Assembly: GCA_016124845.1 (NCBI GenBank)
Contig: WGMW01000021.1
Coordinates: 1 to 64,000, forward strand
Direction of reading: 5' to 3'
DNA from: Flavobacteriales bacterium
GTDB lineage: Bacteria > Bacteroidota > Bacteroidia > UBA10329
DNA: 64,000 nt
Shown: piece by piece, positions 27,775 through 43,084 of the stretch
Numbering within the stretch: the first letter of the stretch is position 1
Layout of the letters: the number at the start of each line of letters is the position of its first letter
Position numbers and translations under genes: made by a program
Notes under the pieces: model-generated
What the model saw: the letters and a program-made list of their open reading frames with translations, nothing else
Databases searched by the model: none
What the model was told of the DNA's origin: nothing

Positions 27775-28109
27775 ACGATCCAAGAACTAAACGTCCAAGT
27801 TTGGAGGAACTCAAGGACGAAAGACACCGTAAATGGCTCCGAACGTTGAAATTGAACTCGAAGAAAGGCTCAGCGGTTGTCATCCAGATGAACGTCCCGG
27901 TCTTTGGAAAAACTGCCACGGAACTTTCTGAACGAGAGATGGAGATCCTTCAACTTATCTCCTTTGGATGCACTACCAAGGATATCGCGGAACGACTCTT
28001 TCTGAGTACCCACACGATCACCAATCATCGCAAGAACATGCTCAATCGTTCGAGGTGCGGGAATTTTGCAGAACTGGTACGCGTAGCGATCAATGAGAAC
28101 CTGCTTTAA
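27771..28109 (+). CDS. LuxR-type HTH transcription regulator (short, no receiver)
   Basis: A 112-residue protein. The C-terminal 65 residues are a complete LuxR/NarL HTH: ELSEREMEILQLISFGCTTK, DIAERLFLSTHTITNHRKNM, LNRSRCGNFAELVRVAINEN. The N-terminal 45 residues are basic and polar and do not contain a receiver or ligand-binding domain. It therefore acts without a phosphoryl-receiver domain of its own, perhaps through protein contacts. Coupled by a 4-bp overlap to the exported TPR gene. The stop lies inside the terminator hairpin (28095-28125). Candidate target: the palindrome at 26376-26390. Confidence 0.9.
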   Translation: MNDPRTKRPSLEELKDERHRKWLRTLKLNSKKGSAVVIQMNVPVFGKTATELSEREMEILQLISFGCTTKDIAERLFLSTHTITNHRKNMLNRSRCGNFAELVRVAINENLL

Positions 28110-28125
28110 GCAGGTTCTCTTTTTT
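28095..28125 (+). terminator. Rho-independent terminator overlapping the LuxR gene end
   Basis: A perfect stem (GAGAACCTGC at 28095-28104 with GCAGGTTCTC at 28110-28119, loop TTTAA) is followed by six T (28120-28125). The TAA stop of the regulator gene lies in the loop, so the hairpin also encodes the last codons. Confidence 0.88.
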
Positions 28126-28657
28126 CATATCGTTTGACCCAGGCAACGAAAAGAAGAAAGATGAAGATCACCGCAATCACGTTGAAGAAATCATGGTTAT
28201 CGATCGGTCCATCGTTACCGAATTTCACCCAGGAGAGGCAGAGACCTACAACCCTTGTAATATTGATGGCTTGGATGCCCAACAACCCCAAAGGAATGAA
28301 CCAAACACGATCGATCCACTTTCCGGGGAATGAAATGATCAGAGCTACTAACGTAAACATCATGTCTGTTCCCAAACAGTAATTTTTCACGTGTACGTTG
28401 AACTCCAGGTCATACATGTCAATATCGCGCATGTTCACCACATCAGCTCCATATCCGAGTAGATGAAGAATCCAAACACTCGGTTCCACCAAAAACTTTA
28501 ATATGTAGTGGATGAAATGACCGTAATATGTGCTGATAACTGGTAGCTGCCACACATTTGGAACGAACCACCAAAAGTAGAAGCCGCAAAGAATGCCAAG
28601 CTTCAGCAGAAACAGGACAAGTTCTTTATTGCGCTTCAGTAATTCCACGGAAACCAA
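28106..28657 (-). CDS. Exosortase/archaeosortase family transpeptidase
   Basis: A 183-residue, roughly six-span membrane protein. The exosortase triad is visible: C94 in KNYCLGTDMMFTL, R135 in INITRVVGL and H155 in IDNHDFFNV. These transpeptidases cut C-terminal sorting tails in the membrane (PEP-CTERM-type systems in Gram-negatives). The frame begins with a TTG at 28657; a GTG at 28648 is an alternative. It follows hemW by 11 bp and is the last gene of a histidine kinase-hemW-exosortase operon. No obvious substrate with a PEP-CTERM-like tail is encoded here. The subfamily (XrtF, XrtX or other) cannot be settled by eye. Confidence 0.85.
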   Translation of the reverse strand: MVSVELLKRNKELVLFLLKLGILCGFYFWWFVPNVWQLPVISTYYGHFIHYILKFLVEPSVWILHLLGYGADVVNMRDIDMYDLEFNVHVKNYCLGTDMMFTLVALIISFPGKWIDRVWFIPLGLLGIQAINITRVVGLCLSWVKFGNDGPIDNHDFFNVIAVIFIFLLFVAWVKRYEKREPA

Positions 28658-35041: not shown

Positions 35042-36289
35042 TCATTCCACCGCAGGAAGAACTTTCGTTCTCACTTCCCCGAAACCAACACGTTTTCCGT
35101 CTTTCTCGCAGTAAGCGCTCATCACCACCGAGTCGCCATCCTGAATGAACTTGCGCTCGGTTCCATCAGGCATGGCAATGGGTTTTGAACCGCGCCAGGT
35201 GATCTCCAGCATCGAACCATAACTTTCGGGTGTTGGTCCCGAAATGGTTCCAGACGCGCACATGTCGCCCACATTCATATTGCAGCCATTCACCGTGTGG
35301 TGCGCCAACTGCTGCGCCATGCTCCAGTACATGTACTTGAAGTTGCTGTTGCTAACTGTTTTGGCTACGCCCGAATTTGTTTCGATGGCAGCCTGAAGAT
35401 GGATGTCAAAACTGTGATTCTTCTGCATTTCCAAGTAGGGGAGAACGGCAGGTTCCTGTTTTGGTCCCGCTACGCGGAAAGGCTCCAACGCTTCCATGGT
35501 AATGATCCAAGGAGAGATGGACGAACCGAAGTTCTTCGCCAAAAATGGACCGAGTGGAACGTATTCCCATTTCTGAATATCGCGTGCGCTCCAATCGTTG
35601 AACACGACCATCCCGAAAATGTGGTCTTCGGCATTTTCAACCGAAACGGAGGTTCCAATTTCATTTCCTTTTCCCACGATAAAGGCCATTTCCAACTCAA
35701 AATCGAGCAAGCGACATGGGCCGAAGGTCGGTCTGTCAGCGTCATCGGCTTTTGTCTGTCCTTTCGGACGATGGAGCGGAGTTCCGCTTACCACAATAGA
35801 TGAAGCGCGGCCGTGGTAACCTACAGGAATATGCAGCCAGTTTGGAAGAAGTGCATTATTCGGGTCGCGGAACATGGTTCCAACATTGGTCGCATGCTCC
35901 TTACTGCTGTAGAAATCGGTGTAATCGCCAACCCGCACAGGCATCAACATTTGCACCTCTTCCACTTTTCGGATGGCATTGAGCCGAACAGATTCGTTGT
36001 CTCGCAATTCGCCATTGTTGGCCGCAAAAAGTTCTTGAATACGCTTGCGCGTGGCGGAAGTGACTGGCTTTCCAAGCGCAATGAAATCGTTCAGAACTGA
36101 ATTGCTGAAAATGTCGTCAGGCAAGTTGATGCCAGCGAAAAAACCAGCCTTTTGCAGCGCATCCAGGTCAATGACGTTGTCACCTAATCGCGTAGCCGCT
36201 CTCGGTTTTCCGTCCGAACTGAAAACTCCGAAAGGAATATTATCCAAACTGAAGTCGCTATCTGCTGCAATGTTTATCCAACTGCTCAT
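35042..36289 (-). CDS. fahA: Fumarylacetoacetase
   Basis: A 415-residue enzyme from the ATG at 36289 (MSSWINIAADSDFSLDNIPF). It cleaves fumarylacetoacetate to fumarate and acetoacetate, the last step of tyrosine catabolism. Landmarks: YTDFYSSKEHATNVGTMFRD, PVGYHGRASSIVVSGTPLHR, PCRLLDFELEMAFIVGKGNE (metal ligands Glu, Glu), VFNDWSARDIQKWEYVPLGP and GTISGPTPESYGSMLEITWR. Typical length. Homogentisate dioxygenase is not adjacent, so the upstream pathway steps lie elsewhere. It may be cotranscribed with the DUF3667 gene. Confidence 0.97.
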   Translation of the reverse strand: MSSWINIAADSDFSLDNIPFGVFSSDGKPRAATRLGDNVIDLDALQKAGFFAGINLPDDIFSNSVLNDFIALGKPVTSATRKRIQELFAANNGELRDNESVRLNAIRKVEEVQMLMPVRVGDYTDFYSSKEHATNVGTMFRDPNNALLPNWLHIPVGYHGRASSIVVSGTPLHRPKGQTKADDADRPTFGPCRLLDFELEMAFIVGKGNEIGTSVSVENAEDHIFGMVVFNDWSARDIQKWEYVPLGPFLAKNFGSSISPWIITMEALEPFRVAGPKQEPAVLPYLEMQKNHSFDIHLQAAIETNSGVAKTVSNSNFKYMYWSMAQQLAHHTVNGCNMNVGDMCASGTISGPTPESYGSMLEITWRGSKPIAMPDGTERKFIQDGDSVVMSAYCEKDGKRVGFGEVRTKVLPAVE

Positions 36290-36338
36290 TTGATCAAATT
36301 CTTTGGTGCATTGTTCCGTTGGTGGCAAAAGTAACCAG

Positions 36339-36373: not shown

Positions 36374-38047
36374 ATGATGAAGTGGCTGAGAAAGATCCTA
36401 TTTGTGCTTACCGGCTTGGTGTTGGTCGGGTGGCTGGCATTGCAGCTATCATACAGCTTGCTGGAACTTGATCCACCTCACGTGAAGGAGATTCCGATCT
36501 CGGAGAATTCCGTGACCGAGAAGAGTGGAACGCGTATTCTCAACAATAGCTGGTACCACCAGAATCAATACGGGCTTTGGGAAGCGTACATCGAAGGAAA
36601 ACCGTACGAACGCGGAAGAACTTTTGGACTACTGGCCGGAGAACAGATCGTTTCGCAGGAAGTCAGTTTTATCGCACAGATACGCAAGTTGATTCCATCA
36701 GAATGGTTCCTTAATACGTTGAAATACGGTATCGTTTTCTTCAACAGGAACTTGGATGAACACGTGACCGAGGAATACCAGAAAGAGATTTATGGTGTTT
36801 CTGAATCGTTTTCGGATGATTACGATTTCATTGGTGAAAAATACAGCCGCATTCTCAATTACCACGCGGCTCACGACATCGGTCATGCGCTTCAGGATCT
36901 GAGTATTGTAGGCTGCACCAGTTTTGCCGCTTGGGACCGTTACAGTGCAGATTCTTCGCTTGTCATCGGGCGGAATTTCGATTTCTACATGGGCGATGAT
37001 TTTGCCAAGGACAAGATCATTCTGTTTATAAAACCTGATAGCGGTTACGCATTCGCCAGCATTACGTGGGCGGGTTTTATGGGCGTGGTTTCGGGTATGA
37101 ATGAACATGGTCTGACTGTGACCCTGAACGCAGCAAAGAGTTCAATTCCGAACGGAGCGAAAACACCTATTTCGCTTTTGGCAAGGGAGATTCTGCAATA
37201 TGCAAGAACCATTGACGAAGCCTATGAGATTGCGAAATCGCGCAACACGTTTGTTTCCGAATCCATTCTGGTTGGTTCTGCTGCAGATCATGCGGCAGCC
37301 ATCATTGAGAAATCACCTGACCGAATTGACATCTATCGACCAAATGACACGCGTTTGGTGTGTGCCAATCACTACCAAAGTGAGGCGTTCCGAAATGACC
37401 CCGTCAACCTGAAAAACATAGAGGATTCAGACTCGGAATACCGATTCAAACGGATGAATCAGCTGATTGATAGCACATACCCGATGAACCCAGAAAAATC
37501 GGTTCAAATCCTTCGCAATCAGAAAGGACTTGATGGTGCTGAACTTGGAATGGGAAATCCGAAAGCGATCAATCAACTGTTGGCGCATCACGGAGTTGTT
37601 TTTCAGCCAGAGAAACGATTGATGTGGGTGAGCACGAACCCGTTTCAGTTGGGTGAATTCCTTTGTTACGACCTTAATAAAGTTTTTTGGAAAAAGGAAA
37701 AAGAAAAAAGATCGGAAGTTTCGTTTGTTGATTCACTCACAATTCCCGCAGATGAATTTCTTCAATCGAAAGATTTCCAACGCTTTCTTCGCTACAAGCA
37801 ATTGAAAAACCGATTGTTCGATAAAGTGGCATTGGGCAAAGACATCGAATGGAATGATGAGCTTGAGCAGGAATTCATAAATAGCAATCCTGAAAGTTAC
37901 ATTACGTATTCTATGCTCGGTGATTACTATCTTGAGCAGGGCGATTTGCCTAAGGCCAAAACGTATTATGAAATGAGTTTGAGCAAAGAAGTGGCCTCAA
38001 AACAGGAAAGGGAGAAAATTGAACAGAACTTGAAAGAATGCCTCTAA
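36374..38047 (+). CDS. C45-type autoproteolytic Ntn hydrolase/acyltransferase
   Basis: A 557-residue protein with an N-terminal membrane anchor (ILFVLTGLVLVGWLALQLSY, 8-27). It carries the C45/penicillin V acylase-like fold: GKPYERGRTFGLLAGEQI, the nucleophile in SIVGCTSFAAWD (C181, exposed by autoproteolysis in the family), VIGRNFDFYMGD, and GFMGVVSGMNEHGLTVTLN. A C-terminal TPR-like region (YITYSMLGDYYLEQGDLPKA) is appended. Family members transfer or hydrolyse acyl amides, including bile-acid and beta-lactam-type bonds. It overlaps the next gene by 10 bp and leads a three-gene operon. The acyl substrate is unknown. Confidence 0.85.
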   Translation: MMKWLRKILFVLTGLVLVGWLALQLSYSLLELDPPHVKEIPISENSVTEKSGTRILNNSWYHQNQYGLWEAYIEGKPYERGRTFGLLAGEQIVSQEVSFIAQIRKLIPSEWFLNTLKYGIVFFNRNLDEHVTEEYQKEIYGVSESFSDDYDFIGEKYSRILNYHAAHDIGHALQDLSIVGCTSFAAWDRYSADSSLVIGRNFDFYMGDDFAKDKIILFIKPDSGYAFASITWAGFMGVVSGMNEHGLTVTLNAAKSSIPNGAKTPISLLAREILQYARTIDEAYEIAKSRNTFVSESILVGSAADHAAAIIEKSPDRIDIYRPNDTRLVCANHYQSEAFRNDPVNLKNIEDSDSEYRFKRMNQLIDSTYPMNPEKSVQILRNQKGLDGAELGMGNPKAINQLLAHHGVVFQPEKRLMWVSTNPFQLGEFLCYDLNKVFWKKEKEKRSEVSFVDSLTIPADEFLQSKDFQRFLRYKQLKNRLFDKVALGKDIEWNDELEQEFINSNPESYITYSMLGDYYLEQGDLPKAKTYYEMSLSKEVASKQEREKIEQNLKECL

Positions 38048-39339
38048 ACCAATTGGAAACCAGCGCATTGGCGCGAGAGAATTACTGGCTGAAAGCGCTG
38101 AATGAGCATATTGCTTATCTGCGAAAGAACAGTTGGTACTATAAAGACCAATTGGTTTGGGCTGGGCCAGAGGCAAGTGAGCTGGAGGAACTTTCCGACA
38201 TCAAGAATTTCCCGTTTACGGAGAAGGATGATATTGCCAGCCGCAATCAGGATTTTCTGTGCGTGCCCATGCAAAAGGTGCGAGATATCGTCACCACATC
38301 TGGAACGTTGGGCGGTTCGGTTGCCAGTTTTCTGACCGAGAAAGACCTTAACAGACTCGGTGAAAATGAAGCGGGTTCGTACCGTTTGGCAGGCTGCACA
38401 AGCGAAGACACATTCCAATTGCTGACCACCATCGATAAGCGTTTTATGGCGGGTTTGGCCTATTTTCTTGGTTCAAACACACTTGGTGCGCGGATGATCC
38501 GTTCGGGACCTGGCGCGTTGCAGTTGCAATGGGAAAGCATCCAGCGTTTTGAGCCAACCGTGCTAATTGCGGTGCCGAGTTTCATTCCACGATTGATCAA
38601 GTATGCACTCGATAACGGCATTGACCCGAACAAGAGCTCGGTAAAGAAGATCATCTGTATCGGTGAAGCCATCCGTGACGAGAAACTTCAACCGAACTTC
38701 TTGGCCAAGCGCATTACGGATCAGTGGAATATGCAGTTGTTTTCAACGTATGCGAGTACCGAAATGGCCACGGCTTTCACAGAATGCGAGGCGGGGAATG
38801 GCGTTCATCTTCAGCCAGAACTCATGTTTGCCGAAGTGCTGAATGAGGATGGCGAGCAGGTGAAAAATGGTGAGAGCGGGGAGGTAGTGGTTACGCCTTT
38901 GGGCGTGGAAGGAAGTCCTGTGCTTCGTTTCCGAACGGGAGACATCTGTCATTATTACGATGATCCATGTTCTTGCGGAAGAAACACGCCACGCTTAGGA
39001 CCTGTGATCGGGCGCAAGCAACAGATGATCAAACTGAAAGGAACTTCACTTTACCCGAATGCCATCATTGACGAACTGAATGCCATGAAGGAAGTGGTGA
39101 ATTTCGTGGTTGAGTTGCAAAGTGATGAACTTGGTTTGGATGAAGTGGTGATTCGGGCATTGCTGCAAGGCGAGAACGCCCAAACCAATGTTTTGGAACA
39201 TTTGAGTGGTAAATTGCGTGTAAAACCAAGGTTGATCCTCGCCACAAATGAGGAGATCAATTACTTGAAATTCGATGAGAACGAGCGGAAGCCGCGGATT
39301 CTGATTGACAAAAGGTCAACGAAAACCGATGATGAATGA
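38038..39339 (+). CDS. Phenylacetate-CoA ligase-like adenylate-forming enzyme
   Basis: A 433-residue PaaK-like enzyme. Adenylate-forming motifs are VTTSGTLGGSVASF (phosphate-binding loop), STYASTEMATAF (A5), and RFRTGDICHYYDDPCSCGRN through GRKQQMIKLKGTSLYP (A7-A8, with the paired Cys typical of PaaK). It activates an acid as an acyl-adenylate and probably forms a CoA thioester. The substrate need not be phenylacetate. It overlaps the C45 gene by 10 bp and the YceI-like gene by 4 bp, so the three are translationally linked. Confidence 0.9.
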   Translation: MPLNQLETSALARENYWLKALNEHIAYLRKNSWYYKDQLVWAGPEASELEELSDIKNFPFTEKDDIASRNQDFLCVPMQKVRDIVTTSGTLGGSVASFLTEKDLNRLGENEAGSYRLAGCTSEDTFQLLTTIDKRFMAGLAYFLGSNTLGARMIRSGPGALQLQWESIQRFEPTVLIAVPSFIPRLIKYALDNGIDPNKSSVKKIICIGEAIRDEKLQPNFLAKRITDQWNMQLFSTYASTEMATAFTECEAGNGVHLQPELMFAEVLNEDGEQVKNGESGEVVVTPLGVEGSPVLRFRTGDICHYYDDPCSCGRNTPRLGPVIGRKQQMIKLKGTSLYPNAIIDELNAMKEVVNFVVELQSDELGLDEVVIRALLQGENAQTNVLEHLSGKLRVKPRLILATNEEINYLKFDENERKPRILIDKRSTKTDDE

Positions 39340-39884
39340 GAACACTTCTACTTGTTTTATTGACGTCCGTAGTATTTAGCGCAGCCGCTCAGAACACCGA
39401 AGGGTACGAGATTCGCGATGGTCGCATCGGCATCAGCGTTTACGTTCAAGACACGTTGCTCGATTTCGGAAGCAACAAACTGTGGCTGTTCATCGATTAT
39501 CACTCCAAACGCATCAAGATAAAAGTGGATCCGACCACGTTCCATTGTGGTGTCGATTCGCTTGATGAGAAACTGGAAAACGGAAATTTCCGGTCGGTAA
39601 CCTTCGATGGTGTTCTGGACATCGACCGACTTTCGGTTCAGGCCAAGGCACCGCAACATTTTGAGATAGAGGGAGACCTTGAATTGAATGGTGTGACACA
39701 GCAGATCATCATGATGGCCACGTTGAGCGATTTCCGACAGGGACCGAACATTGAGTGCCTGCTTTACATCCATTACGACATGCTTCTGAGGGATTTCTAT
39801 TTGGATGAGACGCTACCGAATTTCGGAGAATCGGCCTGTATTGAAATGTTGCAGACCTTGAAATTGCCTACCGAGCGCGATTAA
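39336..39884 (+). CDS. Exported YceI-like lipid-binding protein
   Basis: A 182-residue protein with a signal peptide (LLVLLTSVVFSAAAQ). The beta-barrel pattern of YceI is recognisable: YEIRDGRIGISVYVQDTLLD, LWLFIDYHSKRIKIKVDPTT, FRSVTFDGVLDI and HFEIEGDLELNGVTQQIIMM. YceI-fold proteins bind long hydrophobic chains. Coupled by 4 bp to the ligase. Its last 4 bp overlap the convergent receptor gene. A role as carrier for the lipid made or broken by the operon is inference. Confidence 0.78.
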   Translation: MRTLLLVLLTSVVFSAAAQNTEGYEIRDGRIGISVYVQDTLLDFGSNKLWLFIDYHSKRIKIKVDPTTFHCGVDSLDEKLENGNFRSVTFDGVLDIDRLSVQAKAPQHFEIEGDLELNGVTQQIIMMATLSDFRQGPNIECLLYIHYDMLLRDFYLDETLPNFGESACIEMLQTLKLPTERD

Positions 39885-42460: not shown

Positions 42461-43084
42461 ATGAAACGAATTGTATTTCTGGCATTGATAGCGAGTCCGT
42501 TGATCTCTTTCGGTCAGCGTACCATGAAGGATTTTATGAACGAAAATTGCGATGTGGTCTGGTTCGGTTTGGATTTCACCAAAGCGAGGATGATCGGAGA
42601 AGAGGGGTTCCACGATCCTGTGGCCATCAAAGAGGACTATTTCCGCAAGTGGAATCATCTGATGATATCTGAAGGTGACAAGTACGAATGGGGAAAAGCG
42701 CTTCTGATCGCAGACCTGAAATACGATTATGGCGTAGTGGATGTGGTCAACGACCAAGTGAAAGTGAAATCGTTGGTCATCAATAAATCTTACAGTATTT
42801 CGGAAGATGACATCAAATCCGCGGTGAAAGCCTACACCATCGAAGATTACAAGGACGGCATTGGTATTGTGATCTTGGTGGAATCGTTCGATAAGATCAA
42901 GGAGCAGGGTTTCGGATATCTCACATTCTTCGATATTGGCACCAAACAGGTGTTGTACACGCACAAATTGATCGGAGATGCAAGTGGTTTCGGATTCAGA
43001 AATTATTGGGCGGGTGCCATTTACAACTGGCTCAAGTATACCCGAGGAAGAGTTATGAAGGACATCAAGAAGGAATTCAAGTAA
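42461..43084 (+). CDS. Exported hypothetical protein
   Basis: A 207-residue protein from the ATG at 42461 with signal peptide MKRIVFLALIASPLISFGQ. It contains FMNENCDVVWFGLDFTKARM, ADLKYDYGVVDVVNDQVKVK and VKAYTIEDYKDGIGIVILVE. Mixed alpha/beta composition with no recognised family; I recall comparable unnamed Bacteroidota secreted proteins. A TACTTTCG box (-7-like) lies about 20 nt upstream of the ATG. The DUF2461 gene follows 28 bp later. Confidence 0.75.
   Translation: MKRIVFLALIASPLISFGQRTMKDFMNENCDVVWFGLDFTKARMIGEEGFHDPVAIKEDYFRKWNHLMISEGDKYEWGKALLIADLKYDYGVVDVVNDQVKVKSLVINKSYSISEDDIKSAVKAYTIEDYKDGIGIVILVESFDKIKEQGFGYLTFFDIGTKQVLYTHKLIGDASGFGFRNYWAGAIYNWLKYTRGRVMKDIKKEFK

Follow-up and report, generated by a model that had tools for sequence, protein, structure and literature searches.

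Flexirubin pigments have long served in the chemotaxonomy of Bacteroidota, and their gene clusters are described from Chitinophaga pinensis and Flavobacterium johnsoniae, with genes lettered flxA to flxY together with darA and darB. The first step of flexirubin synthesis is carried out by FlxY, a 4-coumarate:CoA ligase. The purified C. pinensis protein makes 4-coumaroyl-CoA, and FlxW, described as 'ligase-like', was proposed in 2014 to join the aryl polyene to its partner, a dialkylresorcinol (PMC3992019). Among families of biosynthetic clusters, that of the aryl polyenes has been described as the most abundant, and for those of E. coli attachment to a lipid, RND-type export and Lol-type transport have been proposed (PMC8253772). 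In the aryl-polyene (APE) gene list of Kumagai et al. 2018 (PMC5932025), the orthologue groups of a phenylacetate-CoA ligase and of an acyl-CoA:6-APA acyltransferase appear together. We found no demonstration of the enzyme that joins the polyene to its partner in the literature searched, in which no paper linked flexirubin to esterification and an acyltransferase and FlxW was named only in PMC3992019.

The window, by which we mean the whole 64,000-nucleotide stretch analysed here (contig WGMW01000021.1 of assembly GCA_016124845.1), carries three consecutive open reading frames that bear on this question (Table 1). All three lie on the plus strand where the first-pass annotation had placed them, and they overlap as it had described, by 10 bp between the C45 gene and the ligase gene and by 4 bp between the ligase gene and the YceI-like gene. 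The 10 bp overlap recurs in the genus mates L025, L027 and L029. As for the single promoter that had been assumed for the three genes, a scan of the upstream region for sigma-70 promoters, which does not cover Bacteroidota promoters, gave no match. Divergent from the C45 gene, at 35042-36328, is a gene that by eye is fumarylacetoacetase-like and whose position is kept across the genus; this would put tyrosine catabolism beside genes for a tyrosine-derived pigment, perhaps by mere shared synteny. Farther away, at 28106-28657, the window encodes a small multi-pass membrane protein that by eye resembles exosortases or archaeosortases.

Table 1. Features of the C45/FlxY locus, in window coordinates.
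Feature	Coordinates	Strand	Description and basis
C45-family (Ntn) acyltransferase/hydrolase, FlxW position	36374..38047	+	557 aa; family scores, gene order, model, fold
C45 protein layout			N-terminal membrane anchor; Ntn domain ~56-450; C-terminal helical/TPR-like part ~461-555
N-terminal hydrophobic helix (residues 2-30), inner-membrane anchor	36377..36463	+	model helix; hydrophobic N-terminus in homologues
Cys181 codon, predicted Ntn nucleophile, residue 1 of mature beta chain (V-G-C-[TS]-S)	36914..36916	+	NAAA alignment; invariance
FlxY, predicted 4-coumarate:CoA ligase (aryl polyene starter unit)	38038..39339	+	433 aa; NF053551 score, motifs
YceI-like exported protein, probably bystander	39336..39884	+	182 aa; overlaps flxY; without co-conservation
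Exported protein of unnamed family, often near flexirubin genes elsewhere	42461..43084	+	neighbourhoods of named loci

The second gene had been read as encoding a PaaK-like ligase. The protein does match models of the PaaK type, but the FlxY model NF053551 ('flexirubin biosynthesis putative acyl-CoA ligase') fits it far better, with 553 bits against a cut-off of 520, whereas the next-best models gave 165-170 bits. The motifs of adenylate-forming enzymes are present (TSGT, YASTE, TGD and GRKQ), and the protein is 46-50% identical to the FlxY of Chitinophaga species. The ligase in the window is thus a predicted 4-coumarate:CoA ligase, an activity proven for the C. pinensis enzyme only.

The protein encoded by the first gene scored 232.9 bits against the C45_proenzyme model NF040521 (cut-off 85) and 87.7 bits against Pfam AAT (cut-off 23.2). 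The substrates of C45 proteins are mostly amides. Cys181, Arg200, Asp203 and Asn332 are invariant across 31 C45 homologues. In an alignment with the beta subunit of N-acylethanolamine acid amidase (NAAA), Cys181 falls on the first residue, and Arg200, Asp203 and the GRNxD motif line up too. The Ntn-hydrolase active site is intact in sequence, with self-cleavage predicted before Cys181. An AlphaFold2 model (pLDDT 88.6) has the Ntn-hydrolase fold and a helix at residues 2-30, and the closest solved fold is that of isopenicillin N acyltransferase (IAT, 2x1c; Z 37.2, 3.0 A over 340 residues, 21% identity), followed by acid ceramidase (Z 30.2) and NAAA (Z 29.4). TPR proteins also came up as a structural match of the C45 profile, a match explained by the C-terminal part only.

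The N-terminal membrane anchor claimed for this protein is supported, both by the helix in the model and by the homologues, 96 of 99 of which begin with a hydrophobic segment. A lipobox-like motif was seen in three homologues and is convincing in two of them (L044 and L023). Because the N-terminus is hydrophobic, and carries a lipobox in some homologues, the catalytic domain is expected on the periplasmic side, out of reach of CoA and ACP thioesters. The earlier proposal that the chemistry is divided by the membrane, with the CoA ligase in the cytosol and the C45 protein facing the periplasm, still stands.

The C45 protein is a regular partner of FlxY, and in whole flexirubin/aryl-polyene clusters of other Bacteroidota it takes the FlxW position, between FlxV and FlxX/FlxY. 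When 99 related genomes were searched for a C45 orthologue, one with a strong score was found in 23, mostly adjoining FlxY, and three genomes (G037, G071 and G079) carry the whole pigment cluster, with the FlxU exporter, FlxV, C45, in some a PPTase, and FlxY. We also compared 80 named loci from GTDB genomes, a set to which C. pinensis itself does not belong; among the 79 over which counts are given, FlxY adjoins C45 or lies at most two genes away in 52. In Chitinophaga species the order is PS deacetylase, LolA, LolB2, dehydratase (DH), GT2, FlxU, FlxV, C45, PPTase and FlxY, and by this order C45 occupies the letter W of flxA to flxY. The putative identity of FlxW with the C45 protein rests on gene order in Chitinophaga species other than C. 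pinensis. The pair of C45 and ligase is itself already known from the published aryl-polyene gene list (PMC5932025). At five loci from uncultured-bacterium genomes, Bacteroidales and others (L154, L157, L162, L163 and L167), the gene after C45 encodes a protein of 421-424 aa instead of FlxY. In the copy at L154, B12-binding and radical-SAM domains were matched, and the other copies share a similar start.

We then compared the occurrence of C45, FlxY, DarB and DarH across the same 246 Bacteroidia genomes; absences from draft assemblies may be gaps. C45 was present in 39 genomes, and FlxY in all 39 of them (Fisher p 2e-43, a value that ignores phylogeny). A strong FlxY was found in 41 genomes, these 39 together with G117 and G161. 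Strong DarB hits were also found in 39 genomes, 37 of them with C45 and the remaining two being G031 and G117, and DarH exceeded its cut-off in 37 (35 with C45, and again G031 and G117). Two genomes, G202 and G220, have C45 within whole aryl-polyene clusters and neither DarB nor DarH; G031 and G117 have both DarB and DarH and no C45, and G117 also has FlxY. In G079, DarB and C45 are present and DarH is absent. With caution, the distribution of C45 is closer to that of the starter ligase for aryl polyenes than to that of the dialkylresorcinol (DAR) genes. In G161 an exported alpha/beta hydrolase of the feruloyl-esterase-like BD-FAE family (C1; L175:10506-11417) lies between FlxV and FlxY, where C45 is normally found, possibly as its non-orthologous replacement. 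This single case points to an exported ester as the substrate of C45.

The pigment genes of the source genome are spread over at least three contigs, that of the window included. Contig C58 carries DarA adjoining DarB (575.2 bits, cut-off 550), a dehydratase (DH) and an ACP, and contig C54 carries a ketosynthase, a KS-like protein, an ABC transporter pair, DarH and a small conserved protein. In the window itself, only the gene at 42461-43084 accompanies the C45/FlxY pair. Elsewhere, homologues of its product often adjoin FlxY or other flexirubin genes, and they occur in 23 of the named flexirubin loci; the protein matched no Pfam or NCBIfam model, and its structure, modelled with confidence, gave weak matches to CsgG/PelC/TolB-N-like folds (best Z 7.5). 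The FlxA lyase and the FlxU exporter were sought across the incomplete draft assembly of the source genome and not found, so that completion of the pigment by this species is not certain. A lyase match on contig C40 (36% identical) is more likely a histidine ammonia-lyase than FlxA. FlxU is present in eight of eight genus mates, which makes a gap in the assembly as likely as a loss. On the evidence of gene content, the locus in the window appears to be a detached piece of a pigment pathway of the flexirubin type (aryl polyene-dialkylresorcinol); the genus that carries it is an uncultured one within Flavobacteriales.

We give slightly better than even credence to the following account as a whole: that the locus is such a detached piece, that C45 (FlxW) acts in the periplasm to move the aryl-polyenoyl group from an exported ester to an acceptor, and that the YceI-like gene is local. 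FlxY in the cytosol would make 4-coumaroyl-CoA, which, as expected from orthology, would prime a type II polyene synthase. The completed aryl-polyenoyl group would be attached to a carrier lipid, and FlxU, a fusion of an MMPL exporter with PlsC-like acyltransferase and methyltransferase domains, would export it. C45, held in the inner membrane with its catalytic domain on the periplasmic side, would cleave itself before Cys181, and this residue would take the aryl-polyenoyl group off the exported ester and hand it to an acceptor. The acceptor would be dialkylresorcinol in organisms that make it, and water or a different alcohol in the rest. The product would then be brought to the outer membrane by LolA and LolB2. 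Because C45 is kept in two aryl-polyene genomes without DAR genes and is absent from two genomes with them, we favour an enzyme that transfers or hydrolyses aryl-polyenoyl esters in the periplasm over a dedicated dialkylresorcinol ester synthase. Transfer and hydrolysis are both compatible with the sequence, and both the reaction and its substrate are putative. Against the account stand the preference of C45 proteins for amides, the failure to find FlxA and FlxU in the source assembly, and G117, which has FlxY, DarB and DarH and no C45. The wider proposal, that FlxW-type C45 proteins at large are periplasmic aryl-polyenoyl transacylases, which take the acyl group of the pigment off an exported lipid and pass it to the last acceptor, with or without dialkylresorcinol, is put forward tentatively and at clearly less than even confidence. 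If it is true, a Cys-Ntn enzyme outside the cytoplasm performs the final acylation of a large pigment family, and C45 has been swapped for a feruloyl-esterase-like hydrolase in some lineages.

The alternative that C45 is a dedicated ester synthase joining the aryl polyene to dialkylresorcinol is rather doubtful, although it agrees with the published proposal for FlxW (PMC3992019) and with the position of C45 in the Chitinophaga clusters. The closest fold is that of an acyltransferase, 37 of the 39 C45 genomes have DarB, and G079 combines DarB with C45 while lacking DarH. An enzyme dedicated to this bond is, however, not what one would expect from the retention of C45 in G202 and G220 or from its absence in G031 and G117. 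CoA and ACP thioesters are also not directly accessible to a periplasm-facing enzyme, and DarH, which NCBIfam describes as a BtrH-related acyltransferase, is another, serious candidate for the polyene-DAR ester bond. The gene survey thus uncouples C45 from the dialkylresorcinol genes and brings out DarH as a competing candidate, and the genomes G202, G220, G031, G117, G079 and G161 make the question of how the polyene is joined testable.

It is unlikely that C45 forms no bond at all and serves in the periplasm as a hydrolase for trimming or recycling wrongly acylated pigment or lipid carrier. The exported esterase in the equivalent slot of G161 would fit such a role, as would the fold relatives acid ceramidase and NAAA, both hydrolases; the top fold match, however, is a transferase, and the constant pairing with FlxY suggests a role beyond housekeeping.

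The YceI-like gene does not share this pattern. Its product scored 22.6 bits against Pfam YceI (E 1.5e-4), below the cut-off of 23.7. No homologue adjoining C45/FlxY was found in neighbour loci by tblastn or phmmer, and none was found by blastp in the named loci (0 of 79). The conservation expected for all three genes thus extends to the C45/FlxY pair and not to the third gene, which is probably a local addition and a bystander rather than a conserved partner. It may be co-expressed with flxY here. That its product is a periplasmic carrier recruited in one lineage for the hydrophobic pigment seems improbable: the overlap with flxY suggests translational coupling, the protein weakly matches the lipocalin-like YceI family, and its N-terminus resembles a signal peptide by eye, but none of the genus mates and relatives that were compared has the gene at this site, the score is under the Pfam cut-off, and the pathway elsewhere already has LolA/LolB2-type carriers.

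The first-pass annotation was right that C45 and the ligase form a real functional pair, but the pathway to which it assigned them, an undescribed one for N-acyl amide or N-acyl amino-acid lipids, is contradicted by the FlxY score and by the pigment-cluster context of the pair in other genomes, and with a YceI-like gene that is not conserved it is extremely unlikely, even though the three genes overlap and lipid amides are the substrates of the C45 relatives NAAA and acid ceramidase.

The locus resembles the described flexirubin clusters in its FlxY orthologue, in the DarA, DarB, DarH and polyene ketosynthase found in the source genome, and in having C45 at the FlxW position before FlxX/FlxY, as in the Chitinophaga relatives; the source genome differs in that its genes are dispersed, its assembly yielded neither FlxA nor FlxU, and an extra YceI-like gene follows flxY. 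In the list of Kumagai et al. 2018 (PMC5932025), both gene types stand together in the aryl-polyene set, separate from the DAR genes, and the C45 protein is listed without an assigned function. The E. coli APE pathway (ApeD/J/M/L/N), for which lipid attachment, export and Lol transport were proposed, has a gene list without a C45 protein. IAT, the closest solved fold, is a fungal penicillin enzyme; the C45 protein differs from it in having a membrane anchor and, at the C-terminus, an additional helical region. NAAA and acid ceramidase have the Ntn fold in common with the C45 protein (Z 29-30), and Cys181 and GRNxD match the NAAA beta chain; these two enzymes hydrolyse lipid amides in lysosomes, whereas the C45 gene described here belongs to pigment synthesis.
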